Source of the DNA: Chytriomyces cf. hyalinus JEL632
Taxonomy: Eukaryota; Chytridiomycota; Chytridiomycetes; Chytridiales; Chytriomycetaceae
Direction: 5' to 3'
Assembly: GCA_025435555.1 (NCBI GenBank)
Contig: JAIWWG010000007.1
Span: 62,001 to 126,000 of the forward strand
Length of the DNA: 64,000 nt
Every line of letters starts with the position of its first letter. The stretch's first letter is position 1. Positions 27,018 through 58,939 of this stretch are shown in pieces. The translations under genes and the position numbers were made by a program. A model generated the notes under the pieces. The model did not search any database. It was not told the DNA's origin and saw only the letters and a list, made by a program, of their open reading frames with translations.

Positions 27018-27331
27018 CTTCTGTGTGTGTACCTTCTTTTTTTGCTATTTTAGGCCCCCTTTCCGTTACGCGTATTTATGGAGCGGCATTTCAGGAAGCG
27101 TTAGTTTTTTTCTATTTTAGTGAAACATGGGTAGCGTTTCTATTTTTGGGAGGCAATGTTTCTGGGCACAAAATGTTCAGTACGAGTCTCATATGGCCAG
27201 CACTGCATATGCATGCATATACGTAGATAGATATAGAGCACTGCGTGAATAACCACCGATTTAAAATCGGAAGCGATAAGCTCGTTCCCTTCATCGCTGA
27301 CGCCATCGCAACAAAAATAAAAATAAAATAA
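27018..27331. promoter_or_regulatory. Divergent promoter tyrosinase / siroheme synthase with two inverted repeats
   Basis: 314 nt shared by the minus-strand tyrosinase and the plus-strand siroheme synthase. It contains a perfect 7+1+7 inverted repeat (CCGATTT-A-AAATCGG, 27256-27270) followed at once by a 6-bp pair (AGCGAT 27272-27277 with ATCGCT 27293-27298). Both lie within 80 nt upstream of the siroheme synthase start, so they could be protein-binding palindromes or 5' UTR hairpins. Confidence 0.4.
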
Positions 27332-29542
27332 ATGCTTGCAGACGCCGAAGTCAACACGCCGATACCCGCTGGTCTCATCGTGTCACTCAGACTGCTCGGC
27401 AAGAAGGTTCTCGTCGTGGGCGGCAACAAGGAGGTGAACTACTCGCTTGCCCTGATTACGGCAAACAGGCTAAACAGACACATGGGGTCATCTGCTTGAA
27501 CTTTCCCACGCAGGCCGAATCGCGTGTCATGCATGCATTGGACGCGGGCGCGGTTGTGACAGTTCTCTCACCAGTGTCCGGGCTGACTGCGGTGCTGGTA
27601 CAGCGCGTTGAGGCCAACGAAGTGTCGCTCATCGATGCAGCGTTTGAGGGTGTCCAGGATCTGTACTTTGACACACAAGCAGGAGACAATGCGGATGGAT
27701 GCAAGACTTACGATCTTGTGCTGGGATGTTTGGACGAGTACAATGAGAGCGAGCAGTTGGCTGAGTGTGCGCGAGCGTTAAAGATGTACAGACTCTCCCC
27801 CATTCCTATTTTTGTTTTATGCCCCTTGATAACTCAACTTATAAACAATCAACAGTCCCGTCAACTGCGCCGATGTCCCGCACTTGTGCGACTTTTTCTT
27901 TGTCGCCGTCATGCGCGAGGGACTTCTTCAGATTGGCGTATCCAGCAACGGCGGTGGACCGAGACTCGCGGCCCGTCTTCGCTCACATATTCAGTCAACG
28001 CTGCCGAAAGGAACGCGGGAGGCAGTCTCGAAAATTGCTCGATTGCGTGTGTTGGTTAAAAACACGCCTACACCCCCGGGTTCTGGCTCGTTGATCAAGA
28101 AACGAATGACCTGGATGACGAGGCTGTGCGACCAGTGGTCGTTTGATGATATGGTTTGTGTTTTTGGAAATTCGGAACCTCCTGATTTTATTTTGCGAAC
28201 TTGCGAACGCGTATGCACAACTCATATCATTCTTCTTCTTTTTTTTTTTTTTTTTTTTCCAATTATTGTCGTCATCCATTCTCTCAACAGGCAAATCTGA
28301 ATGAGGAGGACGTTGTTCGACTATTGGGTGCATACGAACGGGGCGAGATGGAACCTCCACTTCCCACTAGCAAAATCGCACCACTTGGATCCAGCACATC
28401 TGCAAACGCAAACTCCATTTCATCCAATCCAACATTTTCGATGCTTGCATCACAAATTCCGACACTGCAGCAACTGTTGGACAACCCCATCCAACGACTT
28501 AACGCGCTTGCATGTCTGTTTTTCACTGTTTGGCTGCACATCCTCACGTATCCTCTGCGTGCCACATTTTCCCTTCTCGAATCCATTTTCCCAAACTTGA
28601 AAACATGGTCTCCACCTCCGATCGTGATTCTGAAAGAATCGACAGCACTACCCACTGCACCAGCTGCATCCGCCAAACCCAACCTTGCAACACAATCTTC
28701 TCAACAACTACTCCAAATCCCACCTCTTCCAGCCTCCAAAACCCCAAAAGTAGTCCTCGTCGGAGCAGGACCGGGTTCCACAAACTTGCTCACGGTTGGA
28801 GCCATTCGAAACCTTGCCGCCGCCGATACAATCGTCACAGACCACCTCGTGAGCGCCGACATTTTGCGACACGTTCCACCGACATGTAAAATCCTGCAAG
28901 TCCCTAAAAAGGAAAAAGGCGCCAGCGACGCGGCTCAAGACGTTGCAAATGACCTCTGCGCAACAGCCATCCTTAAACACGGTGCAAAACACGTGGTACG
29001 GTTAAAGGGTGGAGATCCATACGTGTTTGGACGCGGCGGCGAGGAACTCGTGTACCTTCGCGAACGAGGCGTGAATGTGGAAGTGGTTCCTGGTGTGTCG
29101 GGTGTGAATGGGATTCTGGGGTCAGCAGGGATTCCAGCAACGTTTAAAGGGTTGAGTGAAGGTGTAGTTGTGTTGACGGCACGTGGAGAGAAGGGTGCGT
29201 GGCCGGAGGTGCCTGCGTTTGGGGATGGGTTAAAGACTGTGGTTGTGTTTATGCCGATTGCGCGGATGAAGGGGATTTCGGATTTGATGGTGAGTAGAGT
29301 GTGCGTGTGTGTGTGCCTGCTTGAACGACCTTTGACTTACAAATTTTCATAAACAGATCAAGCAAGGATACCCATCAACACTGCCTGCTGCAGTCATTGA
29401 AAACGGAAGCCTTGATCATCAAAGGGTCATTAAGGGAACACTTGCAACCATTCCAGATTTGGTGGTTTCTGAAAAAGTGGTGAGCCCCGCGTTGCTGGTG
29501 GTTGGGAAAGTATGCACCGTGTTGGACAAGGTGCAATCATGA
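27332..29542 (+). CDS. MET1: Bifunctional siroheme synthase (Met8-like + uroporphyrinogen-III C-methyltransferase)
   Basis: Makes siroheme for sulfite and nitrite reductases. Exons 27332-27433, 27514-27785, 27856-28153, 28291-29289 and 29357-29542 give 618 residues. The N-terminal part is a precorrin-2 dehydrogenase/ferrochelatase-type Rossmann domain (VLVVGGNKE, then DLVLGCLD, and FFFVAVMREGLLQIGVSSNG). The C-terminal part is SUMT: VVLVGAGPGSTNLLTVGAIR, VRLKGGDPYVFGRGGEE, VVPGVSGVNGILGSAGIP. This is the order of domains in bacterial CysG, whereas yeast keeps Met8 and Met1 apart. A long linker with a hydrophobic stretch (ALACLFFTVWLHILTYPL) separates the halves. Intron 3 contains a poly-T tract at about 28239-28259. 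Confidence 0.92.
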
Positions 29543-40331: not shown

Positions 40332-43300
40332 ATGGAAAAAAAGACAAAAATGGATGAAACATATTTCTCATTTCATCCATCCGCCCCTCATCAACCAAAT
40401 TCGGAACAACTTCATCTTCAGAACACTCAGAAGCCTCCACTTGCTCCGGAACCCTCCATCACAAAAGCTTCCCATACCTTTCTCGTATCTCATAATTCAA
40501 TGGACCGCTCGAATGACTCTTCATCAACCTCTTGGAAACCCACGTCAAGGAGCAACTCGCGCCAAGACAGTTACAACTTCAATTACCGCATTGGCGACAA
40601 TTCAAAGCTGATCCTTGCATCAGGATCCAGCCCTTATACAGACTCCGAACAGGGACTGTCTGTCAAATCTTCAGAAGCATCCATCAGTACATTACTTCAG
40701 CACGGCAACCGCACGGCTTCCCCCTTCTCATCAACCCTGAAGCGGGAGAGCTTTGTTACACTGGGGAGCCCTTCTCTAGGCGCAACCATCAACAGCCGCT
40801 TCAGCAGATTCGAAACACTTCCTTCCCTTATGCATGAAACCGAAATATCTGCAGTTCGATCAACAGACTCGCGAATGCCTCTCACACACAAGCGATTGAA
40901 ATCGTTTGTTCACGATTGCTCCATTCCGTTACCGGGGCTGTCTCGAGGTTCACGGATCGGTGTCCTTTTGCCAGAAGGACCCGAGTTGGCTGTCTGTTTG
41001 GTCGCATTGCTGAGTCATTGCTGCGTTGTGCCAATGAACAGTCACTTTACAGCAAGAGAAGTGGCAGCGGAATTGACACAACTGCGTGCGGATGCGGTTG
41101 TTTTGAATGCAAGGGATCATGATGTAACTTGACGCCTTTTCCCTTCATCCTGTTTGCCCCAGTCGTTCACCTAAACGCATTGATTCCGTTTCCGCGGATA
41201 ATTTGTTTTCTCCAGGAAGAACTTGTCAGGATACTGACTGCCGCTGGCATCACAACAATGTTTCTATTTCCGGATCCAAATTATTGTGGATTGTTTACTT
41301 TAAACTTGTTCAGCACTCTGGAAGGAGGTTTGCATGATCTCATCTCAATCACCAGTTCATCCCGCAACAGGGTATGGATTTCATCTTTGGGATCACAACA
41401 GCATCAACACTGAACATCATTGAACACCCTTTCAAAACAAAAACAGAGCATGGCTAGCAAAAAACGTCAAAGCAGTCTCATCAGTTTCATGATGGGTGAC
41501 ACCGCCAGCACCACAACAACACACAGCATCCACGAACACACAGAACCAGAAGACACGGTCATGATCCTCCGCACATCCGGAACAAGCGGAAACAAAAAAA
41601 CAGTCCCATACACACTGCGAACACTCATTGTCGGTGCGAAATGTGTGGCTGAATCGTGGGGCTTGTCTCCTCAAGACGTCAACTTGAACATGATGCCTTT
41701 GTATCATGTTGGAGGGATCGTTAGGAACTTGCTGGCACCCATCCTGAGTGGTGGGACTGTGATTGTAACTCCCGGATTTGACGCTGTGGCTTTTTGGGAG
41801 ATTTTGCAGAATCACAGTCCTACGTGGTACTACGCCGTGCCCACTATGCACATGGCAATTTTAGAGGAAGGTGCCGAAGTCATGAAAAAGGGTCACAGAT
41901 TGGGTGAAGGACTGCGTACAAGTATCCGCATGATTGCCAATGCCGGGGGTGGGCTGCCTCATAGTCTTGCCGTTCAGTTACGCACCGTTTTTCAAGGATC
42001 AACAGTTTTACCATCGTACGGAATGACAGAGTGTATGCCAATTGCTACACCCCCGCTTCATTACAAGTTGGAGAAACCGGGCACTTCGGGAGTTTCTGTC
42101 GGTGCGTCTTCAGTTTGACATTTTTCCATCTCCACCCCAATCACAAAACATTCTAAATCGTGCTATACATTGAAACTTAGGCCCTGAAATCGCAATCATG
42201 GATGGAAACCATTCCATTCTTTCCGCTGGGCTGTTTGGGCGCATCATGGTTCGCGGAAAACCAGTTTTCGGCGGCTACGAAAATGACGACGAAGCAAACG
42301 CGAAAGCTTTCACCGCAGACGGATTCTTTGATACCGGCGACATGGGATACCTGGATGAAGATGGATATCTTTGTAAGTCGTCAAAAATCTCGTGCCGCAA
42401 TTTTCATTCTCAGTCATTAATAATATTGTTTTCAAATCAAAAGTCATCACGGGCAGATCGAAAGAAGTCATCAACAGAGGCGGTGAAATTGTCTCACCCG
42501 TCGAAATCGAAGACGCTGTTCTCTCGCATCCCCGTGTTCTGAACGCAATCGCGTTTTCAGTGCCGCACGCGGTGCTGCAAGAAACTGTTGGCATCGTCAT
42601 TGTCTCCAGAGACCCTGCTTCCAGAGTTGGACTTCTAGAGTTGCAAAGGTAATGGTCAAGAGTGTTCTTTGTTGCTGCTGCTGTTCATCCCACTTGAGAC
42701 TCATACCGCACAATCCCCGACAGACACGTTGCATCCACCCTCCATCCAACAAAATGGCCCCAATTCGTTGTATACATGGAAGATCTCCCGAAAAACCAAA
42801 CAAACAAACCACTCCGCATTAAACTCGCCGAAAGACTCGGCCTAGACGAACAAAGCGACAACACACCAATCATCCAACGCCACATGGAAGCAGAATGCCC
42901 ACCAAAAGGAACACCAATCTCTGTGAGAATCGACTGCCAACCCGTTTCATCCGTAAATGTTGAAAAACTGGGCAAGATTCTTTGCTTGATGCCGTTTGCG
43001 CGTGAAGCACGCATTTTTTCTTTTGAAAAGGGTGAGATGGCTGCGTTTGTGTCGGGGACGCAAGGATTGTCGTCACAAGATGTTCATGACTTTTTGACGG
43101 GGAGGGTGCACGATTATGAGATTCCGCAGGATATTATTGTCGTCAACCGTCTTCCAAAGGACTCTCATGGAACCATCAGCTTTGACAAGTGCAAGAAAAT
43201 TTACATGGAGCAACGCGAAGAAGCGTTGACGGAGACTGAGCGTGTTTTGGTGGATCTGTTTGCAAAAGTGCTGGGTTTAGGACGGAGACCTAAAAAATCG

Positions 43301-45909
43301 GATGACTTTTTCGAAATCGGAGGCAGCTCGTTAACAGCAGGAAAAGTGACTGCGCTCATAAGGTGATCAATGTTTTTTGGTAAATATTGCATTGACGTGT
43401 GAAGCTGATGGACTTAATTACTCAGGAGCAAGTTTGGCGTTCGATTGGCACCAATGGTCATATTCCAGCATCGAACAGCCGAAAAGTTGTCCGAAGCACT
43501 TGCCGAAGCTGTCCAAACCGATCGCGAAAAGCCAGGAAGCAATGGCAAATCGTTTGCATTTGACGGGAAAATCAAATCCCAAAGCCCTGTATCCGTGAAA
43601 GCCGTTTACACTCAACTTCTTCCTTTACTCGTATTCCGTCCGTTGCGCAGCATCGCACTCTGGCTGTCGTTTGCGCACATCCTCAGTTTCATCCACCTCA
43701 CATTTTTTTTCGAGTACAACAATCGAGGAACGGTCAAGACTTCCGTCATCATCATTTGTCAACTTATGATTGCTGGAGCAGCGACAGGCCTCCTTTTTCA
43801 AATTCTGTCTCCAATCATTTGCTTGATTGCAAAATGGACTCTTGTTGGGAGATACAAGGCCGGCGAATATCCGTTATGGGGTTCCGCGTACTTGCGTTGG
43901 TGGATCGTTGATCATATTTTGCTTCAGTTCGATTCGGGCGTTTTTGGGTGGTCAAACATTTCGCGCATCGCTTTCTGGAAGTTGATGGGTGCAAAAGTTG
44001 CTTGGAACTTTAAGTTTGACAAGAATTTGACGATTCGAGAGTTTGATCTGATGAAGATTGAGGACAATTGCGTTGCAGTGGATACACTGATGCGGCCGTT
44101 TACAATGGAGCCTGGGTTGATGGTGCTGAAACCGATCGTCATTGGTAATTTGTTTTTTGGAGGCGTGTGCGCTGTGCAATTCATCAACCCCTGTTTAACA
44201 TTGCAGAGCGAAACTCGATTCTGAACATGAAATCAAGTATTGCACCAGGAAGCGTCATCAGAGCGAATACAGTGCTTCCACCCATGAGCTCATCGTACGA
44301 TGCGTCTGCCGAATCCTCTGACAAGTATCGAATCTTCGCAGGAACGGGTCCAGATCCAAACATTTTTGTTCTTTTGCTTTTCGGATTTCCGTTCGTTGCC
44401 ATCTTCAGAGTTCTTGTCTTGATTCCATGGGCCTGCATGGTATACTGGATGGTCCAGTTTCCATTTTTTGGCTCCCTTGACGATGTCGCGTATCTTCTGT
44501 TGAGCAATTTCGGTCAACTGGTGCTACACTTCAAGGACCCGCGTCGAATCGGGATCCACGTTCTTGGTTTACTAGCGCATCATTTGATTGCCCCGTTCTT
44601 GAGAGTGGCGCTCCTGATTCTCGTTAAACAATGCGTGATTGGCAAGTTCACTGCTGGAGAAAAACGCCGATCGCAAGTCCAATTGCTGCGACACTGGATC
44701 ATGTCCACATTAGTCGACCGCGGCGAATTGGGCGGCGTGTACGAGCTTTTGGGACGGCATTATGAGGGAATCAGTATCATTTATCGCGCATTGGGTGCCA
44801 AGATTGGAAAACGCGTTTACTGGCCAGGCACACCAATGAGCTTCTACGAGTTTGATTTAATTGATATAGGCGATGACGTTGTGTTTGGGTCACGAAGCAA
44901 GTTTGTTTTTAGCGATGCAATCGAGACGCGGCATATTCAAGTTCATGCGGGAGCGATGGTTGCAGACAGATGTGTGATTCTGCCGGGAGCTGTGATTGGA
45001 AAGAATGCCATGATTGGAAGTGGATCTCTTTTGTGCAAGAACGGGTTCTACCCACCAGGCTCTACGTGGATTGGCAGCAAGGGTGGAGACGCGATTCTTT
45101 GGGATGCTGGAAACCCTGAAGTTGCAGAAAACGAGCCTACTTTGCGACCATTTGGAAAAGCGTTTTACCTCAAAAAGGCCAATTTCAAAGTGTTTAGTCA
45201 AGGCTTCATTTTCGCTTACAGCGCCGGTTTCGAAACGTTTTCAACGCTTTTGTGGTCCCTGCCGCTTCTCGTTGGAATCACTCTGTCGGGATCGTTTTAC
45301 GACATGGCCTTGAGCAAAACGGTGGAAGCAGAGGTGCAAGGGCACTTGTACTTTGCAGTGGGCTATTTATTCACGTACTACTGGGCCGTCGTGATTTCAC
45401 TCGCAATTCCAGTCACTGCCAAACGATTCATTACGCGCCGATTGTCGCCAGGATCATACGATTGGGACATGTCAGATTACTGTCAACGATGGCAAGTCGC
45501 AATCACATTGCAGAAAATCGCGTCTGAATTCGTAAACGATCTTCGCGGCTCTGCATTCATTGTTTCGTATTTTCGCGCTTTGGGGTGCAGTATTGGGGAC
45601 CGCGTTTGTTTATACCCGACGGGCGGGGATCCTATGATGACTGAACCAGATCTAGTCAGCATCGGAGATCATACCGTCATTGACAAGGCGAGTATTGTTG
45701 CGCATATTAATAGCAAAGGCAAGTTTGCCTTGAATGAGTTGCAGATTGGGAATTTTTGTGTGTTGCGCTCGGATGCGCGGTTGTTGTCGGGTGCGGAGAT
45801 GTGTGACAACAGCAGGCTGATGGAGCGAACACTGGTTCTTGGGGGTGACACTGTCGAGTCCGGGAAGGCCATGCAAGGCTGGCCAGCAAATGACCACATA
45901 TATGCTTGA
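40332..45909 (+). CDS. Pls-like NRPS synthetase A (adenylation, carrier, membrane hexapeptide repeats)
   Basis: Predicted single-module, membrane-bound adenylate-forming synthetase. Exons 40332-41123, 41216-41371, 41447-42101, 42181-42372, 42444-42648, 42724-43362, 43426-44144 and 44207-45909 give 1686 residues. The adenylation domain (about 190-690) has LRTSGTSGNKK (A3), YGMTECMPIATPP (A5), DTGDMGYLDEDGYL (A7), GRSKEVINRGGEI (A8) and a catalytic-lysine region NQTNKPLRIKLAERL (A10). The carrier domain has DDFFEIGGSSLTAGKV near 868, with the phosphopantetheine serine intact. The C-terminal 800 residues hold three units, each hydrophobic segments, then a K-W/C-T/V-GxxxxG stretch, then RALGAKIGKRV-like left-handed beta-helix turns. 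That layout matches poly-epsilon-lysine synthetase; the substrate is unknown. It converges on paralogue B. The N-terminal 180 residues are Ser-rich and not shared with B and C. Confidence 0.85.
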
Positions 45910-46227
45910 TTATTAATATGATCATAACCTTAGCTTATAACTTATAGATATCTGCGCTGCTTCTCAGAAACAATAAAAAATTCATTCTTTGAACATATTA
46001 ATATTTAAAAAAAGTTCACAAAAAACACAACGGCACACTTAATGGGTAAGCACCGCGTTTGGCTTCCATCGCATAGGTCATCTCAGAGTTCTAAATGCAA
46101 AAACGCGTGAACAGGTGAACCAAACGACGCGTCAACAACGCCACGCATCCTCACACCCGCAGTTCAAAACAACCCACCCGTCAAACCGCCTTTTCCAAAT
46201 AACCCTAAAATCGAAAAGGATTCCATC
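45910..46227. other. Intergenic, synthetase A 3' flank
   Basis: 318 nt of AT-rich sequence after the synthetase A stop, with AATAAA-like strings near 45972. No gene is seen. Confidence 0.5.
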
Positions 46228-46675
46228 ATGAAATCTGAAAACGACGCGCACGAAGGCGCTGGAAACACTGGCCAAGACGGTGGTGGCTCAGTCCACTTGG
46301 CAGCTCTCAACAATTCAACTGGATTTCCATTCCACAGAAACGGCACCGAGTTGAACCTGGATTTGGCGATTGAAAACTACGGAAACAGTTTGACGATGGA
46401 GGGAGCGTCGTCAAGAGGAGTGTGGAGCGCGATGGAACTGCTGCTGTTTCTGCATACTCTGCCTATCATGTACTGGATCTATACACTGTTCAAAAGCAGG
46501 GGAATCAAGGATGTCGAGTTGAGTTTCATTCCCACCTAGAATGCTCGTTGGTTGGTTTTCTTAACTGTGGCTGTTTTAGGACGCTGAAAAGGTCAGATAT
46601 CAAGAATTTGCGGCAACTCAAAAGACTGGTTCGATGATTCCAAAATTTGCCTTTCTTCAAAGGCAGCGGGTCTGA
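46228..46675 (+). CDS. Small single-pass membrane protein, unknown
   Basis: Exons 46228-46512 and 46580-46675 give 126 residues. Intron 46513-46579 (67 nt, GTCGAG donor, TTTTAG acceptor) joins TLFKSRGIKD to DAEKVRYQEFAATQKTG in phase; without splicing the frame stops nine codons later. The first 70 residues are hydrophilic and Gly/Asn-rich, then a hydrophobic segment SAMELLLFLHTLPIMYWIY could span a membrane, followed by a basic/charged end (FAFLQRQRV). No family is recognised. It lies between the convergent synthetases A and B and could be functionally linked, but there is no direct evidence. The donor is weak, so the model is tentative. Confidence 0.45.
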
Positions 46676-47201
46676 TGTAAAATATTCCTGGTTTTTTCTG
46701 TCCTGTATTCTGCGCGGTTGTAAATATGCAGACCGACCCGGCTCGCTTGTATAAATAAAATGAGCACTTGTCCAAATTATCTGCAGGTATCTAAACAAGC
46801 TCCATTCCAAACTTAATCGATTTACCAATACAAAAAGTTTCATCGACTGCTTTTTTCCTGTTCAAGAACGCGAGTTTGTGAATGACTGCTTTAGTTTTGC
46901 ATCACCCGCGTCATCAATCCGTGTTGGCTAACTTCTGAGTAACGGGCCATCCACACAAATTAACGACGATTTCACACGAAGCTGGCATTTAAATCTCGTT
47001 GAAGTTTCTCGGACTTGGAGAAAAAAATTCGCATGCACAACAGCTGCAAGTCTCCAAGACATCATCGCCACCAACAACCCGATAAAACAAAAAAATGCAT
47101 ACGCTTCTATCCAATATTTAATAAAGATCTATTTTTCGTCATAAACTATGTCACAAGAGGGGAAGAGGTATGAAGCATGCAAAAAAAAAGAAAGAGATAT
47201 C
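46676..47201. other. Intergenic, synthetase B 3' flank
   Basis: 526 nt of AT-rich sequence downstream of synthetase B. No gene, repeat or RNA is supported. Confidence 0.5.
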
Positions 47202-50200
47202 TCATCCCAACGTAGCAGCAGACGCCGCGCATAAGCGACCATTCCTATTTCTCCTCATTTCTCTGGACGGCCAACCTTGCACAATCTTGTTGCGGTGCAC
47301 AATTTCACCCCCAACAACAAGCGTTTGCTCCATCATTTGACTGCCATCCTGCATCTCAGCTCCCGAGAGCAACCGTGCCTCAGTTTTCAATGCACATCCG
47401 CGTCCGATTTTAAGCGCATTCATTGAAAAGAATCCTTTGCTATTAATGTGAGCTACAACACTGGCACAGTCAATCACGCTATGATCTCCAATCTTGACCA
47501 ACTCGGGTTCCGTCATCATAGGATCTGCTCCAGTCGGGTACAAGCACACACGGTCTCCAATCGTGGCACCAAGCGCATGAAAGTACCACACAAGGTATTG
47601 CGAACCGCGAATGTTGTTTGGAAGGCCGTGAAGAATCATTTGAAGCGTAATGGCTGCTTGCCAGCGTTGGCAATAATTAGACTTGTCCCAGTCGTAAGAT
47701 CCAGGCACACGACGCCCAATAATCAACCACTTGGACGCAATCATGATTGAAAAAGCAATAGTGATGACCATAATGTAAGTGGAGTAGGATCCCAGGACAA
47801 AGAAGGCGAAACCACGGGTATCCACAGCGTCCACCCCTGTATCCGTCCAATTCTCCATGCACCAGGTATAATATTGTCTCGCGACCAACAGCCCTCCAAT
47901 GGGGATCAAGGTCCACAAGCAAGTGATGACAATCGTGCAAAAGCAATTGTAAAGCACAACTGCCCATTCTGGCAACACATTGAACGAGGCTTGCTTCAGA
48001 TAGAATGCTTTCCCAAACGGCTTAAGTGTAGGCTCCTTCAATGCCGCTACTTCATCACCAGCATCCCAGAGAAGCGCATCCCCATTCTTGGCTCCAATCC
48101 AAGTCGATCCCGGTGGATAGTACCCATTCTTTCCCAACAACGTCCCCGTCCCAATCATGGCATTCTTCCCAATCACTACTCCAGGCAACACCACACATCG
48201 ATCAGCAAGCATGGCTCCTTCTTCAATCGTAATCTTTCTCGACTCTACACTGTCCGAGAACATGAGCGAACTTCTTGATCCAAACACAACGTCATCCCCG
48301 ACTTCCAGTAAATCATATTCATACAAGTCTAACGGAGTACCCGGCCAGTACACACGTTTTCCAACTTTGGCTCCCAGTGCGCGGTAAATGGCACTGATGG
48401 AAGAGTAATGGCGACCCAACAGATCGTACACCCCGCACAACGCTCCGTGGCCATTCACTTTTTGCATCGTCCAATGCTTTACAAGTTCCCAAGGAGTATT
48501 CCGTCGCTGCCCAGCCTTAAACTTCCCGATAACCAACTTCTTGACAAGGATCACCATCGCCAAGTCAACAAACGGGCAAACAACAAATCTGGCAACAGAC
48601 GCAAGAATATGAATCCCGATACGGTAAGGTTCACACTGATGCATGATAAACTGCGCAAATCTGGAGAGCATGTCGTATGCAGGGTTGGACGCGTCTGAAA
48701 AGAAGGGAAACTGGACGAGCCAGTAGATGCACGCCATCCACGGCAGAAATCCAATAAACTTTGCAATTGCTATGATGGGTAGTCCAACAAATACAAAATA
48801 GATCCAAGCAGCGAGACCCCATGTTGGACTGGGTGGTGCGAAAACACGGTACTTCTGATCAGCCTCGTCCAATGAGAATGCGGTACTTCGAGGAGGTAGA
48901 GCGGTATTTTCGGGAATGATTGTTCCAGGTGCGATGCAGGATTTTCGATTGATGACACAATCGCTCTCTGCGAAAACTGTTGCATCAGCACCGAGATAAA
49001 CACGAAATCATACAACTTTGCATCGAACTTACCAATAACAATTCCGTCCAAAACCATCAACCCAGACTCCACACCAAATGGTCGCAATGTCGACTCGGTA
49101 ATGGAACAGTTTGAATGAATTTCAACCAAATCAAACTCCCGCAACGCCGTCGCCCTCAACACCACATTCCTTCCAATCTTTGCCCCCATCAAACGAAAGT
49201 ACAGAGTCTTTGTCCAATCAAATATTTCAAAGACTCCCATTCCATACTCATGAATAACTTGATCCACAAGCCACCACCGCAAGTAATAAGATCCCCAGAG
49301 CGGAAACTTGCCACGTTTATACCGACCAATAATCAGCCACTTGCACGCAATGGTAAACGTCGGCAGTATTATTTGCATCGTCACGTACGCGCCGGACACT
49401 GACAGCATCAAAACAAAAATCTTTCCGATGGAAGTTACAACGTCACTTTTGGTCACATTGTCCAAAAAGACAGAGACACCAAAACTACTGAGGTAGTAAG
49501 CGAAAAACAGCCAAAACACAATGGTGTGCAAGGGGCGAAGAATCAGGATCGACATTGACTGAACGAGCAGCGCGGCAAAGGATGTGGGCGAACGAGACTC
49601 ATTCACGGGTGACCTAGGCTCGTCAGCAAGCGGCGCTTTTTCATTCTCTGAAGATTGCGAGAGTAGAAGATCGGGCGCTTTCAGAATAATAAGTTTGGAG
49701 AGATTCTCGGCAGTGCGGCACTGAAATAACGTCATTGGTGCCAGGCGAACGCCAAACTTGCCTCTATTCAAAGGAGATGAAAACAATTTAAATATATTAT
49801 TTGAGAGTCATATACTTCGATAGAAGCTTTGGTGTACCTGATGACAGCCATCGTTTTCGCCGCAGTGAGGGAGTTGCCTCCGATTTCGAAAAAGTCGACA
49901 GCTTTGCTTGGTCGTTCAGGAAGCCCAAGGATGGACTCCATGATCAAAACAACCTCCGTCTCGATCGGTGAGAGAGTTTCAGCAATGGAGTCTTGGTACA
50001 GCCTCAGGCACCACGCTTCATCGACAGAGTTGTTTGCAAGCCTCGGGAGCGATGGAAGAACAAATATGTCGGATGGGATTTGGTAATCGTGAATCTTGGT
50101 AGCCAGGTATGCTTGAACCTGCTCATTTCCCTTTTTCAAATCTCCAGCTGCGAATACTGCGAAATGGCCGGTTGATATGCACAACACCGAAACTGCAGAC

Positions 50201-52631
50201 ACGCCGCGCATTTTACTCAGCACAGCAATCAGATGCTTGGCAGTGAGTGCAGGCACAGAGCTCGTTGGAATGGGCACAGACAAGTCGGTCCCTTTTGGGG
50301 GGCAGACGGCTTCAAACAGCCGTTTCGAAGCTGGTTTCGTGTCATCGAGCTCGCCAAACTTCATTCGCTCGGCAAGTTTGACGCGAACGGGTTTGTTTGT
50401 TTGGTTTTTCGGAACATCATTCATGTAGACAATAAGTTGCGGCCACTTTGTCGGATGCAGCTTATCAGCCAGAAATCTGTGATATCGTTCCAGAAATTTG
50501 TGAGCAAAAAGAAAGGGTCGGGGGTAATCATTGCCGTTTTAAGACTGCTCCCTCTCACCTCTGAAGTTCCTTCAACCCAACTCGGCAGTTATCATCACGA
50601 GACACGATAATAACGCCAACTGTTTCCTGCAAGACTTGATGAGGCACAGAAAATGCTGCCGCGTTTTGCACCTTTGGATGCATTAAAACGGCATCTTCGA
50701 TTTCGACGGGTGAGATGATTTCACCGCCGCGATTAATGACTTCCTTCGAGCGACCTGTGATGACTGTTTTTCGCAGAAATGTCAGAGACAGTCGAGTTCA
50801 TACATTGTTTCTGATACGTACACAAGTATCCTTCTTCGTCTAGGTGTCCCATATCCCCAGTGTCAAAGTATCCGTCCTTTGTAAATGCCAGAGCGTTGGC
50901 ATCATCGTTGTCTTCGTAGCCATTGAACAACGGCGCACCACGAACCATGATTCGTCCATACGCGTTTGGAGGTAAAATTCGATCAGTTTCGGTATCCATA
51001 ACCGCAATTTCAGGACCTGTTCATGGCAAACAAAATGTCTGTTCAAAAAAACATGATTTCGACAACTCGTGACTCTTCAAAATCTTACCAACAGAAACTC
51101 CAGAGGTTCCAGGTTTCTCCAACTTATAATCCAACGGCGGTGTGGCAATTGGCATGCACTCTGTCATTCCATACGATGGCAACACCGTGGAACCTTGAAA
51201 CAAGGTCCGTAACTGCACCGCCAAGTTGTGCGGTAAACCTCCGCCGGCATTTGCAATCATTCGAATACTTGTGCGCAGACCGTCTCCACTTTTATGTCCT
51301 TGATCCCGAATTCGCGCTCCTTCATCGAGAATTGCCATATGCATTGTGGGCACTGCGAAATACCAAGTTGGACTGTGATTTTGGAGAATGTCCCAGAATG
51401 CGACTGCATCGAAACCGGTTGTGATGATGACGGTTCCTCCACTTAAAATGGGCGCGAGGAGGTTACGAACAATGCCGCCGATATGATATAGAGGCATCAT
51501 GTTCAAATTGACTTCGCTGGGCTGCAAGCAGTATGTTTGTCAGGCATATCTTGATAGCGGAAACTAAATAGTTTTTTACAAGAATTTAAATGGTTTACCC
51601 CAAGGCCCCAAGAATTGGCGACACATTTGGCGCCCAGCACCAGAGTTTTCAGCGTGTATGGTACAGTCTTTTTGTTGCCGCTCGTTCCAGACGTGCGCAG
51701 AATCAGAACATGATCGTCTGGTGTCGTGTATTTTGCTGGCACAGCGACGCTCGGCACCGAACGCGTACTGCGCGAAAGCGATAGATTATTTCGCGTCATG
51801 GACACGCCCGAACGCGTGCTTCGCGAGAGCGATAGATTGTTGCGCGACAGCGACGCCGACTGCGACCTCTGCGCCATTAGTCAGCACTGAAAAGTTTTCT
51901 TTCAAAATAAAAAAAGTAACGGAAACGAACCATGGACATGAAAGACTTCTTCTGCAATAGCCGGCGACCATTGTTGGAATGCTCCTGTTGAATGGTTGAC
52001 AATGAAGTAAATAAAATTTAGCCAATTTAGTTAATCTTTTTAATCAAACAAGGGGACTTACTCCACTCTCCAACGCACGGAGCGGCGCCGCAAGAGTCTC
52101 GCTCGACGAGTGTTCGACGCTCGGGTGATGCCGGGCCGAGAGCCGGAACTTCCCGGCGATTGCGTCCGACGCTTCGAGCAGCAGCACCGCCACCCCAGCG
52201 ACAGAAATGCTGTCCAGCAAAGCCCGCTGAATTGAACAACGTGAGACACAGTGCCCTCTCCCAACACACACACCAACAACACTTACGTTCTCCTTAGTAG
52301 CTGATACAATCACTGCAGTCGCACGCAGCGTCTGCAGCTCCAGCACAACCTCGCTGTCTGTCAGATGATAATTGATGGGGATCACACAGCACACGGCCAT
52401 CATTGCCACGATGCAGCATCCAAGCTCCGGACCTTCCGGAAGAAGGATTCCCACCCGCGATGAAGGCGAGAGACCAAACTCTTCCACTGACAGCGCTTGC
52501 ACGAACGCTTTCAGTCGCTGATGGGTGAGGGCAGAGCGGCCATCGACAGAGCGAATAGCGGGCAGCGACGTGTCCTTCAGCAGGTCTACCATTGCTGTGA
52601 AGCTCATGTCGGTGTCGAGCAGATGGGTCAT
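47202..52631 (-). CDS. Pls-like NRPS synthetase B
   Basis: Paralogue of A and C. Exons 52631-52287, 52226-52062, 51984-51931, 51868-51599, 51521-51089, 51016-50822, 50763-50559, 50476-49838, 49763-49033 and 48967-47202 give 1600 residues. The adenylation domain spans about 1-590 (LRTSGTSGNKK near 247, YGMTECMPIATPP, GRSKEVINRGGEI near 490, NQTNKPVRVKLAERM near 583). The carrier serine lies in DFFEIGGNSLTAAKTM near 757. Residues 800-1600 carry three membrane/hexapeptide repeats with KWLIIGRYKRGKFPLWGSYY, KKLVIGKFKAGQRRNTPWEL and KWLIIGRRVPGSYDWDKSNY, each followed by an ALGAxIGxRV-type turn. A Ser/Arg linker just before the A3 loop has a doubled RNNLSLSRSTRS. The start at 52631 aligns with C; the frame is open upstream to 52709. 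Confidence 0.88.
48051..48516. repeat. Conversion tract, copy in synthetase B
   Basis: 466 nt inside the last exon of B, matching 54261-54726 in C with only two differences found by direct reading (near 48126 and 48198). The sequence beyond 48516 diverges at once. The tract encodes the second hexapeptide domain (around WPGTPLDLYEYDLLEVGDDV). Confidence 0.9.
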
Positions 52632-53417
52632 GAGGTTGGGTGATGCGCAACCTTTCGGTTGAAGTTTGATTTGGATTTTGCAATTATCTGGGCTTTGTTG
52701 GAGGAGCAAGCGAGCTTTATTACTTTACTTGAGCCACACTTTGCCCCCGCCTCCACCGCCAACTGGACATGAGGTGTATGTGAATGGGGTGTCCTGTGGC
52801 ATTCAACTTGACCTCAGGACACTGCTTCAATGCATTCGGACGAGTGCGATAGTCAATACCGGACATAACCGCTCCAAGTCGATACAGTGCAGTAGCTGCA
52901 TCGGCGTACCGGGGCCACACTACAAGCATTCTTATTCTAGGAACGCAGTTCGGGTTGAACAAGACGAAGCTTACCGCAAATCTCCAAGCGCAAACTCCCC
53001 AAATTGTGTCTCGTGATTCGCACCAAATTTCAGCAAAAACGTAATTTTGGTGTCTTGTCCAAAGAATGCGCTTCTTTCCGATATATACTAATGTTCATAC
53101 GGGAGAAGCGACAAAAGACTGCACTGCTGCAAATGTTTTTGTTGTTCGCCAAGTGCTCACGTGACTTATCTCCTTTTGGATTTGTAATACCCAGCGCCAC
53201 CTGCATGACTCAAAGGCTTTTTATCCACTCGGCCCCATCCCATCAAAGTTGCGACAGAACCAAGTATTGCATCCGGTACTCCGGTTCTGCCACCGTCTCT
53301 GGCATCGTAAAATTTTCACAGCTCAACAACGGCTCAAAAAAATTAAAACTGTCCATCCAAATAAAGAAACCAACAAAAAAACAAAAACAAAACAAGACCA
53401 ATTTATTATGTATATAT
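52632..53417. other. Intergenic between synthetases B and C
   Basis: 786 nt between the B start and the C stop, both minus strand; it should contain the B promoter and the C 3' UTR. Short frames lack support. An A-rich stretch near 53380-53400 precedes the C stop codon. Confidence 0.5.
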
Positions 53418-56400
53418 CTAACCAAGAGTTTCTGAAGAAGCAGCACACAACGTCCCATTCCTTCTCGTCCTCATTTCTCTGGACGGCCAACCTTGCACAA
53501 TCCGATTGCTCTGCACAATTTCACCACCCACCACAAGCGTTTGCTCGAGCAACTGACTCTCATCCTCCATCTCAGCTCCCGAGAGCAACCTCGCCTCGGC
53601 CTTCAACACACATCCACGACCGATTTTGAGCGCATTCATTGAAAAGCAGCCTTTACTATTGACATGGGCGACAACGCTGGCACAGTCAATCGCGCTATGA
53701 TCTCCAATCGTAATCAACTCGGGTTCTGTCATCATTGGATCTGCACCAGTCGGGTACAAACACACACGGTCTCCAATCGTGGCACCGAGGGCATGAAAGT
53801 ACCACACAAGGTATTGCGAACCGCGAATGTTGTTTGCAATGCCATGAAGTATCATTTGAAGCGTGATGGCTGCTTGCCAGCGTTGGCAGTAACTGGATTT
53901 GTCCCAATCGTAAGATCCAGGTTCGCGTTTTCCAATAATCAACCACTTGGACGCAATCATGATTGACACTGTGAATATAATGACGAGCAGATAGGTTCCG
54001 TAGGATCCAAGGACAAAAAAGGCATATCCGGTAGAATCCCCTCTTGACCAATCTGTAGCCGAGCGCATTGCCCAGAAATAATAATGCCCAGCTGCCAGTA
54101 ACCCTCCGATGGGAATCATTGTCCATACGCTTGTTGTCACCACGTGTATGAACATACTATATAACACCACTGCCCATTCTGACAACACTTTAAACGGGGC
54201 CTGCTTGAGATAGAACGCTTTGCCAAACGGCTTGATGGTAGGCTCCTTCAACGCAGCTGCTTCATCACCAGCATCCCAGAGAAGCGCATCCCCATTCTTG
54301 GCTCCAATCCAAGTCGATCCCGGTGGATAGTACCCGTTCTTTCCCAACAACGTCCCCGTCCCAATCATGGCATTCTTCCCAATCACTACTCCAGGCAACA
54401 CCACACACCGATCAGCAAGCATGGCTCCTTCTTCAATCGTAATCTTTCTCGACTCTACACTGTCCGAGAACATGAGCGAACTTCTTGATCCAAACACAAC
54501 GTCATCCCCGACTTCCAGTAAATCATATTCATACAAGTCTAACGGAGTACCCGGCCAGTACACACGTTTTCCAACTTTGGCTCCCAGTGCGCGGTAAATG
54601 GCACTGATGGAAGAGTAATGGCGACCCAACAGATCGTACACCCCGCACAACGCTCCGTGGCCATTCACTTTTTGCATCGTCCAATGCTTTACAAGTTCCC
54701 AAGGAGTATTCCGTCGCTGCCCAGCCGTAAACTTTCCAATCACCAGCCTTTTGACAAGAATCACCATCCCCAGCTCGACAAACGGGCAAACAACAAATCT
54801 GGCAACAGATGCAAGAATATGAATCCCGATTCGGTAAGGTTCACACTGATGCATAACAAACTGCGCAAACTTTGACAAGTTGTCAAACGCAGGATCAAAA
54901 GAATCTGAAAAGAAGGGAAACTGGACGAGCCAGTAGATGCATGCCATCCACGGGATGAAGCTGACGAGTTTTACCAACCCCAGAATCGGTAGCCCAATGA
55001 ATCCCAGATACGCCCAAGCGGCGGGACCCCATTTGGAATTCGGCGGCGCGAAAATGCGGTATTTCCTGTCGGCTTCGTCCAATGAGAATGCGGTACTTCG
55101 AGGAGGTAGAGCGGTATTTAGCGGGATGGTGGTTCCAGGCGCAAAGCAGGATTTTCGATTAATGACACAATCGCTCTCTGCGAAAACAATATTCCATCAG
55201 CACCGAGATGAAAACGAAATCATCCTCTTCGAATCAAACTTACCAATGACAATTGCATCCAAAACCATCAACCCAGACTCCACACCAAACGGTCGCAATG
55301 TCGACTCGGTAATGGAACAGTTTGAATGAATTTCAACCAAATCAAACTCCCGCAACGCCGTCGCCCTCAACACCACATTCCTTCCAACTTTTGCCCCCAT
55401 CAAACGAAAATACAAAGTCTTCATCCACTCAGAGACTCCAAACACACCAATCCCATATTCATGAATAACTTGATCCACAAGCCACCACCGCAAGTAATAA
55501 GATCCCCAGAGCGGAAACTTGCCGCGTTTATACCGCCCAATAATCAACCACTTGCACGCAATGGTAAACAGTGGCAGTATGATTTGCATGGTACAATACG
55601 CGCCCAACACGGACACCATCAACACAAAGATTTTTCCGATAGAGTCGATAAAGTTGCTGTACTTGTCCGTATCCAGGAAAACCGAGACACCAAAGCTGCT
55701 GATGTAGTAAGCAAAAAATAACCAGAAAACGATGGTGTGTAAAGGCCGAAGAATGAGGATTGACAAGGATTGGATAAACAGGGCAGCGACAGATTTGGAA
55801 GAATGCGAGTTGACTTTTATGGACGCAGTTGCATCAGTCAGTGGAGTTTTGTCATCGTGATCGCACTTTTGGTCAAGAACGTTTGGAGATTTCATCAAAA
55901 TCAGTTTCGAGAGGTTTTCGGCCGTGCGGCACTGGAACAGTGTCATTGGCGCCAACCGTACACCAAACTTGCTCCTGCAAGAATTCACCGAAACAGTTGC
56001 AACAAAGCGTAAGATCACATGTGTGAATGTATAGAAATGCTTATTATACCTGATGACAGCCATTGTTTTCGCCGCAGTCAGTGAATTTCCTCCAACTTCA
56101 AAAAAGTCGGCGATTTTACGTGGCTGTTCTTGCAACCTCAACACGGACTGAAAAATTTGAAGAATATGCGTTTCCATAGGTGTAAGAGTTTCGGCGATTG
56201 AATCTTTATAAAGCTGTTGCAGCGCGGCTTCGTCGATTGATTTGTCTTGGCGTCTGGGAAGGGACTGAAGAATAAAGATGTCCGACGGGACGTTGTAGTC
56301 GTGTAGTTTCAAAGAAAGGAAGGTTTGAATTTGGTCCTTCCCCGTTTGCAAGCCCCCAGCAACAAATACTACCAGTTGCCAGGGCGATATGCATATCACT

Positions 56401-58937
56401 GCAGTGTCAGTAACGTCAGGCAGTTCATCCAAAACGCCAATTAAACGCTCAACGCTAATCGAATCAACCGGCCAAACATGTATAGGAACCGACAAGGCTG
56501 TTCCCTTTGGCGGGCAAACGGCTTCAAACAGGCGATTGAAAATGGGCACCGTGTCTTCAAACTCGCCCAAATTCATTCTCTCAGCAAGTTTCACGCGCAG
56601 TGGTTTGTTGGTTTGGTTTTTGGGTATATCGGTCATGTAGACAATAAGTTGCGGCCATTTTGTTGGGTGAAGTTTTGCAGCCACGAATCTAGGCGCCCAC
56701 ACACATACACACACACATGCGGCAAGGAGTCGGGGGGGAGGTGAGTGGTGGGATGAAACTGAAAAAAAGCAGTTACAAATTGACTCACTTTTGAAGTTCA
56801 TGGAGTCCAACGCGGCAATTTTCATCACGAGAAACAATGACGATTCCAATTGTTTCTTGCAAGACTCGATGAGGAACGGAAAATGCTGCCGCGTTTTGAA
56901 CTTTCGGGTGCATTAAAACGGCGTCTTCGATTTCGACGGGTGAGATGATTTCGCCGCCGCGGTTGATGACTTCTTTGGAACGCCCAGTGATGACTAGTAG
57001 AAAATGATGTTCAAGGTTTGAAGGTTCGTCTGAGCGAGCATCAGTACAAACATAAATATCCCTCTTCATCAAGGTATCCCATGTCTCCAGTATCAAAGTA
57101 TCCGTCTTTTGTGAATGCTTGCAAGTTTGCTTCCTCATTATCTTCATAGCCGAGAAATAAGGGAGCACCGCGCACCATGATTCGTCCAAATGCACTTGCA
57201 GGTAAAAGCTGATCAGCACCAGCATCCATGACCGCAATTTCCGGGCCTGAAACGTTATAAGAGCAAGTAAGCTTGGTAGCCACCTCCAAGAGTACATTGC
57301 CAAAAAAAATAAACTCACCAACAGAAACTCCAGAAGTTCCAGGTTTCTCCAACTTATAATCCAAAGGCGGTGTCGCAATTGGCATACACTCTGTCATTCC
57401 ATACGATGGCAACACCGTGGAACCTTGAAACAAGGTCCGTAACTGCACGGCCAAGTTGTGCGGCAAACCTCCACCAGCATTTGCAATCATGCGAATACTT
57501 GTGCGCAGACCATCACCGCTTTTATGTCCTTGATTACGGATTTGCGCTCCTTCGTCAAGAATTGCCATATGCATGGTGGGCACCGCGTAGTACCATGTTG
57601 GGCTGTGGTTCTGCAAAATATCCCAAAAAGCCACAGCGTCAAACCCAGTCGTGATTATCACGGTACCGCCACTTAAGATGGGCGCTAGAAGATTTCGAAC
57701 GATTCCGCCAACATGATACAAAGGCATCATATTTAAATTGACATCTCCGGGCTGTTTTTTGTCCACCAACAAAAGAGTGTTAGTTTTTTTCAGGAATCCC
57801 CCAAAATCTCATACAAGCGAGAGAAAAAAAACGAACCCCAAGTCCCCAAGATTGAGCCACACATTTTGCACCAACGACAAGAGTCCTCAGAGTGTACGGG
57901 ACTGTTTTTTTATTGCCGCTAGTTCCAGAAGTGCGCAGGATCATGACTGTGTCGCCGGGTTTCATGTACCGGTCTGTTTCCAGTTGGTTTAGAATGAAAA
58001 GTCTGCTTCTTTTTGTCATTGCTTGGGACATGGGCGTGTGGCAGCGCAATGCGCTTTTGGCGGATGCCTGAACAGCGTTGATTATGTAAACAACGAGTAA
58101 GCACCAAAAACAACAGAAAGAAACCGCGTTATACCAGCGACAGAAGAGAGTTCACGGCGCGTAACGCAACATTCGCGGTCGGAGCGAGTGCGGCATTGTC
58201 GGCGCCACTTGTCCGACTGGATGTCCGACTCCGACTGCTCCGACTCTGAGTGAAAGGCAATAATCCAATTATGAAAAATCTGTGGTTACTCATCTGCGCT
58301 TTGAAATGCTTGAAAATCTTGAATGCAATTTACCAAGCCCTTTTCCAATGAATCCATGGATGATGAGTTTTTCAACGTGCCGCTTGAGGACTCTGACACG
58401 TTCATTCTTGTGTCGTGGCTGGAGAGGCGGAAGAGACCCGCAACGGCCTCGTAGGGATCGAGAAGTATGACGGATATTCCAGATCGGGATATGGACTCGC
58501 ACAACTCGCTCTGTTTGGATAAAGAAAACCCCAGCAATTGTTGTGAACAATGACCGTTGTTTTTTTGGATGAGAACAGGAATAATACTTGCATCTGCTTT
58601 CGACTTGCACAGAATGACTGCCGTAGCGCCGAGAGTCTCCAACTCCAGCACAACCTCGCTGTCGGTCAGATGGTAGTTGATGGGAACCACACAGCAGAGC
58701 GCCATCATTGCCAGAATGCAGCTCCCAAGCTCTGGACCCTCGGGAAGCAATATCCCGACTCGCGACGACGGTGAGATGCCGAGCTCTTTGACGGGAAGGG
58801 TTTCGACAAGCGACTTTAGTTGGCGGTGCGTGAGAACGGCGCGACCATCGACGGCACGTATTGCGGGAAGGGGAGTGTCGTGGAGGAGGTCCAGCATGGA
58901 CGCGAAGGACAGAGCGCTGTCAGTCGCTGGACCAAGC

Positions 58938-58939
<2 letters not shown>
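53418..58939 (-). CDS. Pls-like NRPS synthetase C
   Basis: Tandem paralogue of B. Exons 58939-58592, 58510-58334, 58245-58135, 58067-57837, 57751-57319, 57246-57052, 56993-56789, 56688-56050, 55974-55244 and 55177-53418 give 1609 residues. The lengths of the 433, 195, 205, 639 and 731-nt exons equal those of B. Adenylation motifs: TSGTSGNKKTVPYTL, YGMTECMPIATPP, DTGDMGYLDEEGYL, GRSKEVINRGGEI, NQTNKPLRVKLAERM. The carrier site is DFFEVGGNSLTAAKTM. Three membrane/hexapeptide repeats follow, as in B. The first intron (58591-58511) begins GCAAGT, a GC-AG intron; A and B have GT-AG introns at the same place. Exon 3 encodes a Ser/Arg linker (SRSSRSRTSSRTS). The start ATG at 58939 directly follows a (CA)n tract on this strand. 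Confidence 0.88.
54261..54726. repeat. Conversion tract, copy in synthetase C
   Basis: Partner of 48051-48516, offset by exactly 6210 nt with no gaps. The flanks on both sides are clearly diverged between B and C. Confidence 0.9.

Follow-up and report, generated by a model that had tools for sequence, protein, structure and literature searches.

Three clustered chytrid genes as members of an old eukaryotic family of putative self-loading membrane acyltransferases related to Pls-type synthetases

The window analysed here is a 64,000-nucleotide stretch of Chytriomyces cf. hyalinus JEL632 DNA (bases 62001-126000 of contig C210, from a genome of 37.8 Mb and 242 contigs), and it holds three intact synthetase genes, each of which encodes an adenylation (A) domain, a carrier (T) and three membrane/beta-helix repeats in one chain. 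The best reading of these genes is that they are local paralogues of an old eukaryotic family of single-chain, acyl-loading acyltransferases. Judged from its sequences, the family probably consists of self-loading membrane-bound acyltransferases which would activate one conserved carboxylic acid and pass it to an amine or hydroxyl. It is a sister group of the Pls-type enzymes: common in eukaryotes, old, constrained and apparently unstudied. Widespread and constrained as it is, the family is of more interest than the three clustered chytrid genes themselves.

Gene models were built from GT-AG splicing with the paralogues as guides, and one GC-AG intron was used in gene 3. The spliced models are open throughout, and five intron positions are common to all three genes. 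Genes 1 and 2 are convergent, and translation of genes 1 and 3 begins at the outer coordinates of the original prediction (40332 and 58939). Gene 1 has a Ser-rich N-terminal extension of ~165 aa, and both this extension and the start are also found in the annotated C. hyalinus protein P0007 (96% identical); intron placement is uncertain in a Ser-rich loop near the N-terminus, where several choices exist. Gene 3 is publicly annotated as a single protein, P0003 (hypothetical protein BJ741DRAFT_698104), to which our model aligns with 0 mismatches and two gaps, both arising from intron choice, with the A, T and C-terminal parts in one protein. The three genes and their exons are as follows:

40332..45909, + strand: gene 1 synthetase, in the order A, second A_sub, T, (TM, LbH)x3; spliced model, 8 exons, 1686 aa
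47202..52631, - strand: gene 2 synthetase, architecture as gene 1; spliced model, 9 exons, 1579 aa; 95% identical to annotated C. hyalinus P0001
53418..58939, - strand: gene 3 synthetase, architecture as gene 1; spliced model, 9 exons, 1572 aa; annotated at 1614 aa (P0003)
41447..42101, + strand: gene 1 exon, A domain core with ATP-binding loop and pocket motifs HVGGIVRN, ANAGGG and YGMTECMPI; PF00501 E 4.4e-35 on 41414-42115
51089..51521, - strand: gene 2 exon, pocket part of the A domain; spliced model
57319..57751, - strand: gene 3 exon, pocket part of the A domain; spliced model and Pfam scan
42724..43362, + strand: gene 1 exon, end of the first A_sub with catalytic Lys, degenerate second A_sub, carrier GGSSLTA; PF13193, PF00550, second A_sub by family profile comparison
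49838..50476, - strand: gene 2 exon, end of A_sub, second A_sub, carrier GGNSLTA; spliced model, profile comparison
56050..56688, - strand: gene 3 exon, end of A_sub, second A_sub, carrier GGNSLTA; PF00550
43426..44144, + strand: gene 1 exon, end of carrier, TM pair 1, most of beta-helix C1; TIGR02353 E 1.3e-17
49033..49763, - strand: gene 2 exon, TM pair 1 and C1; TIGR02353 E 5.1e-24 at G000:C210:111031-111495
55244..55974, - strand: gene 3 exon, TM pair 1 and C1; TIGR02353 E 1.2e-25
44207..45909, + strand: gene 1 last exon, end of C1, C2, C3, TM pairs 2 and 3, invariant C3 His (AHINSKG); PF00132 E 2.2e-13, TIGR02353 E 3e-42
47202..48967, - strand: gene 2 last exon, end of C1, C2, C3; PF00132 E 3.7e-12, TIGR02353 E 3e-33
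53418..55177, - strand: gene 3 last exon, end of C1, C2, C3; PF00132 E 1.9e-12, TIGR02353 E 2.2e-32

From N- to C-terminus, the domain order is A core, A_sub (with the catalytic Lys), a degenerate second A_sub, carrier, and three membrane-helix plus beta-helix repeats. The Pfam families AMP-binding, AMP-binding_C, PP-binding and Hexapep are all over cut-off in P0003, P0001 and P0007, and PF00501, PF13193 and PF00550 confirm in these proteins an NRPS-like A-T arrangement with no C domain. Together with the spliced models, these matches bear out the original prediction that the three genes share an A domain, a carrier and a three-repeat membrane half. The carrier Ser is intact in each gene (GGSSLTA, GGNSLTA and GGNSLTA in genes 1, 2 and 3), again as predicted, and both it and the A-domain Lys are invariant in 24/24 aligned family members. 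The second A_sub was called by profile comparison on the family (97.5%, E 7.3e-12). It lies between the Pfam A_sub and carrier matches, which are 146 residues apart in P0003 and 150 in a Novosphingobium homologue; in the one bacterial Pls/PosA protein scanned, this gap is 34 residues and therefore has no room for a second A_sub.

In the C-terminal half, the three repeats are mutually homologous (hhalign probabilities of 99.6, 99.8 and 99.2%, with 0.3% for a control pair), and the membrane helices fall into three pairs, both by hydropathy of the chytrid proteins and in an AlphaFold model of an orthologue. This model is of the Novosphingobium protein, which is 33-34% identical to the chytrid proteins and was used in their place; its C-terminal half has a pLDDT of 93 and a pTM of 0.92. 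An early 258-residue prediction made without an alignment (pLDDT 47) was set aside. The closest folds to the orthologue model are hexapeptide acyltransferases, in fold-match (VIA-align) rows that mostly cover model residues 322-498 (C2) and barely cover the other parts. PF00132 is over its cut-off of 27 bits in one stretch per protein, also in C2 (40.3, 40.1 and 48.2 bits). Hydropathy, profile comparison, Pfam scan and orthologue model thus agree on a Pls-like A-T-(TM, beta-helix)3 architecture in one chain, as first proposed. The K-x-x-x-IG-x4-G stretch once assigned to every repeat is less regular: read by eye, it occurs in 7/9 repeats as written and in 8/9 if V is allowed for I, and repeat 3 of gene 1 has lost it (KRFITRRLSPG).

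The expected homology of this half to TIGR02353 is clear (197-204 bits, E 1e-58 to 1e-60). Full-protein scores of 203.5 (P0003), 203.9 (P0001), 197.1 (P0007) and 188.5 bits (the Novosphingobium ORF) do not reach the curated cut-off of 423.1, however, and two of the five bacterial members, used as controls, scored 772.6 and 559.5 bits. Thirty-six positions in the C-terminal half are common to the family and five bacterial Pls/PosA proteins, one His (in C3) among them. These shared positions, a domain order like that of Pls/PosA and the paired helices would suit a Pls-like homopolymer synthetase which takes a monomer with an acid and a nucleophile off the alpha position (an omega- or beta-amino acid, or a hydroxy acid) and makes a polyamide or polyester. 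But the A domain is of the acyl-CoA-ligase type, and at 22-27% identity to the bacterial Pls/PosA genes found, the family could well catalyse a different reaction, so we regard such a synthetase as rather unlikely and a homopolymer product as possible but not favoured.

Among solved structures, the nearest relatives of the A domain are oxalate-CoA ligases (6qjz, E 6.5e-63; 5ie0, 1.6e-60; 8aff, 1.3e-55), followed by a malonyl-CoA ligase (E 1.1e-39), in agreement with its predicted resemblance to peroxisomal acyl-CoA synthetases. The best NCBIfam model for P0003 is FadD7 (262 bits), and long-chain ligase models are also among the best matches. With hydrophobic segments present as well, these models could point to an enzyme which loads fatty acids to form a membrane lipid or a lipopeptide-like ester. 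They fall far below cut-off, however (262 vs 650 bits), and the nearest solved relatives are small-acid ligases (oxalate, then malonate), which leaves a fatty-acid substrate improbable.

The preferred reading, a self-loading transferase of one conserved acid, draws on the pocket, for which the argument rests on alignments; a literature search listed no usable paper on the oxalate-binding residues of AAE3. The HxHG, RSxS and TEAxH motifs of three solved oxalate ligases are replaced in the family by HVGG, NAxG and TECMP, and the pocket letters (NMMPL-x-HxGG-xx-RN, NA-x-G-x-L, YGMTECMPI, PP, Y) show a conservation of 0.90-1.00 across 67 proteins of the family. We also looked at 82 motif rows from 80 bacterial loci, kept of 545 confirmed: TEAxH was found in 79 rows, two further rows were of other kinds, HxHG and RSxS were seen in the bacterial rows displayed (40/82), and only the full-length Novosphingobium homologue had TECMPI. 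By part, the mean majority fraction is 0.68 for A_sub, 0.66 for the A core, 0.51-0.55 for the C domains, 0.49 for the carrier and 0.38 for the second A_sub, making the A core the best-conserved part next to A_sub. Since the pocket is nearly invariant, the same acid is probably used across the family. The A domain thus reads as one that selects a single conserved substrate, which would not be oxalate, nor an alpha-amino acid held in the usual way.

In NRPS A domains, an Asp217-type residue contacts the alpha-amino group. The column of PosA Asp217 (Stachelhaus position 1) is His in 28/28 family rows (27 distinct proteins) and Asp in 5/5 bacterial Pls/PosA proteins. The amino-acid adenylation model TIGR01733 is absent from the best 25 models for P0003 and so scores at most 134.4 bits, against 419 and 437 for bacterial Pls/PosA controls. 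Arg fills the PosA Glu221 column in all 67 family proteins, although this column match lies beside a two-column alignment gap and is less sure. According to the PosA study, Asp217 binds the substrate, and Asp217 and Glu221 are the most important pocket residues (PMC10522769). A canonical cationic polymer synthetase (polylysine or polyornithine), i.e., a true Pls/PosA or Epls member, would share the architecture described for Epichloe Epls (PMC7179176) and PosA (PMC10522769), but the missing Asp, the Arg in the Glu221 column and the missed TIGR02353 and TIGR01733 cut-offs make it very improbable. We therefore reject true Pls/Epls membership on two grounds, a TIGR02353 score of about half the curated cut-off and the replaced recognition Asp, and the original filing of these genes as Pls is not supported. 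A polylysine-like product is unlikely. For the same two reasons, the homopolymer or isopeptide first put forward as the product is reduced to one option, and the acyl substrate then mentioned as an alternative becomes the better one.

Loading of an acid onto a carrier by an oxalate-ligase-type A domain is not odd, because bacteria also fuse that type to carriers: it was so in 5/5 ORFs picked for long matches, four of which also have a thioesterase or condensation domain. These ORFs lie at loci L026, L029, L040, L075 and L054, with a thioesterase in L026, L029 and L040 and a condensation domain in L040 and L075.

We propose that the family works in a manner resembling Pls and LpxA/LpxD, the latter being acyl-ACP-using beta-helix transferases. 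The alignments strongly suggest that the A domain, an oxalate-CoA ligase relative with a rewritten pocket, activates a carboxylic acid without binding it in the manner of an alpha-amino acid. An anionic acid is weakly hinted at by the invariant Arg, because in PosA a Glu at that place holds a cationic side chain. The acyl group would then be loaded onto the phosphopantetheine arm of the carrier in the same chain. The three beta-helix domains, set on membrane helices, may form a pseudo-trimer within one chain, with a single active site near the conserved C3 His, where the acyl group would move from the carrier arm to a membrane or cytosolic acceptor that offers an amine or hydroxyl. More speculatively, the product could be an undescribed class of eukaryotic metabolite or lipid, in which one acid is joined by a pseudo-trimeric membrane transferase into a conjugate or polymer common to diatoms, cryptophytes, slime moulds, moulds and mushrooms.

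Fungal members had been thought rare. Homologue searches (E <= 0.001) instead gave at least 776, at least 803 and at least 680 overlapping proteins, and both fungi and protists are among the best 120 of each, which were examined. Named sources among the matches listed include chytrids, Umbelopsis, Absidia, many Agaricomycetes, Malassezia, Fusarium, Trichoderma, Verticillium, Colletotrichum, Metarhizium and Aureobasidium. Non-fungal sources among them are Guillardia (a cryptophyte), a pelagophyte and Coccomyxa (a green alga), while diatom and Physarum (slime mould) members were inferred from the record ids Psemu1 and Phypoly. Family records, which also include Schizophyllum, carry names such as 'peroxisomal-coenzyme A synthetase', 'oxalate--CoA ligase', 'acetyl-CoA synthetase-like' and 'NRPS-like'. 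For some Agaricomycete members (P0068, P0070, P0096, P0100, P0106 and others), RING-finger Pfam domains are listed alongside the synthetase within a single protein.

In a tree of 48 C-terminal halves, Ascomycota, Basidiomycota, chytrids, and Mucoromycota plus one unnamed row each form a group with support of 1.0, and Asco- and Basidiomycota join at 0.998. The order among fungal phyla is weak (0.76 and 0.40, with Dikarya outside Mucoromycota plus chytrids), and deep nodes are poorly supported. Each fungal phylum groups alone and a branch of 1.45 sets the five bacterial Pls/PosA proteins apart, so a recent transfer from bacteria to fungi was rejected. A viral carrier was also rejected: there were 23 pattern matches, none of them a relative.

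One of the 80 bacterial loci, in Novosphingobium percolationis (L025), encodes a full-length homologue as an intron-free ORF of 1531 aa, with 37% identity over residues 2-1597. Its protein falls among protist sequences in the tree (0.74), and its gene is present in 1/199 genomes of its bacterial family, so transfer from a eukaryote to Novosphingobium is the simplest reading. Beside it at this locus (L025:8905-18384) are genes for a phosphopantetheinyl transferase, a ferritin-like protein, a TonB-dependent receptor and a cation efflux protein, and the locus is possibly metal-related. A phosphopantetheinyl transferase adjoins 3/6 Pls/PosA loci, and the host chytrid genome has four matches to this enzyme.

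No biosynthetic partner was found among 20 chosen neighbouring ORFs of the window, which belong to housekeeping or regulatory families or have no match. We therefore rejected a dedicated gene cluster, and the neighbourhood suggests no acceptor; the three chytrid genes are local duplicates without a visible gene cluster. The window also contains, at 27301-29349 and 20875-23362, NAD-binding plus tetrapyrrole methylase ORFs, which we take to be siroheme-type, and an ABC transporter.

A second locus in the genome (L021, G000:C57:55527-62359) holds a convergent pair of the same genes, one on each strand, with 82 and 83% DNA identity to genes 1 and 2 across the main alignment segments. In this genome, TIGR02353 gave 19 matches (10 candidates scored), every one of them at the C210 or C57 locus. 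Over the last exon, the C57 copies are each 97% identical to an annotated protein (C. hyalinus P0006 and C. confervae P0002), and genes 1, 2 and 3 are 96, 95 and 92% identical to C. hyalinus P0007, P0001 and P0004 (P0004 being a shorter record). From these identities, the second locus and gene 3 predate these Chytriomyces species. Elsewhere, at G000:C165:45390-49982, two AMP-binding gene matches with equal scores lie 3.5 kb apart and are perhaps a recent tandem duplicate.

We estimated dN/dS on last exons by the Nei-Gojobori method (558-586 codons). Against the C57 copies, values were 0.051/0.72 for gene 1, 0.050/0.853 for gene 2 and 0.117/1.388 for gene 3; between window genes, they were 0.100/0.513 for genes 2 and 3 and 0.408/2.862 for genes 1 and 2. 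The last exons are under purifying selection, and the genes are not decayed. Although the gene models rest on splice signals, the chance that separate neighbouring genes were read as one, or that the copies are decayed, is negligible given this selection, the annotation of gene 3 as one protein without mismatches to our model, and one-chain homologues in many lineages, the intron-free bacterial ORF included. Between genes 2 and 3, 150-base bins at window positions 48101-48550 have 98.7, 100 and 94.7% DNA identity, other bins having 53 to 93%, and this stretch over C2 resembles a gene-conversion tract.

Pls-type enzymes are familiar as makers of antimicrobial cationic polymers. For the present family, no functional study was found among the literature matches listed for NRPS-like, hexapeptide, polylysine-synthetase and peroxisomal-CoA-synthetase topics, and the literature search found no papers naming TIGR02353. 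One table row in a Verticillium dahliae paper carries the family's usual name ('Peroxisomal-coenzyme A synthetase, NRPS-Like'; PMC4971026), making that gene a putative member by name. In the text available from two papers, Pls-type enzymes are bacterial with a limited number of eukaryotic members (PMC7179176, PMC10522769); the sequence network of the latter mentions unnamed eukaryotic sequences, which may include members of this family. The family is present in well-studied genera (Fusarium, Trichoderma, Verticillium, Malassezia and Schizophyllum), and the pocket signature HVGGIVRN / NAxGxL / YGMTECMPI offers a means of finding further members.

Of the known systems, Pls/PosA (epsilon-polylysine and delta-polyornithine synthetases) are alike in having an A domain, a carrier and membrane helices with three beta-helix domains. 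The PosA terminal domain is predicted to be three left-handed beta-helices on six helices (PMC10522769), and the family likewise has three beta-helices. It differs in its A domain, which is of the acyl-CoA-ligase kind and lacks the Asp, in the ~150 residues with a degenerate second A_sub before the carrier (34 in one bacterial member), in length (1494-1821 aa in 24 aligned family members vs 1335-1353 aa in five bacterial proteins) and in the tree branch of 1.45 that separates the two. The fungal Epls (epsilon-polylysine synthetase of Epichloe festucae), compared here by its published description, has the same domain order, is 51% identical to Streptomyces Pls, and has a lysine pocket and a distribution in few Ascomycota (PMC7179176), whereas our family has another A domain and a eukaryote-wide spread. 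Oxalate-CoA ligase / Pcs60 / AAE3 are the nearest solved relatives of the A domain, but they are stand-alone CoA ligases with other pocket motifs. Finally, the maltose, galactoside and serine acetyltransferases (hexapeptide, left-handed beta-helix) are soluble homotrimers that use acyl-CoA, whereas the family carries three unequal copies in one membrane chain with its own carrier.
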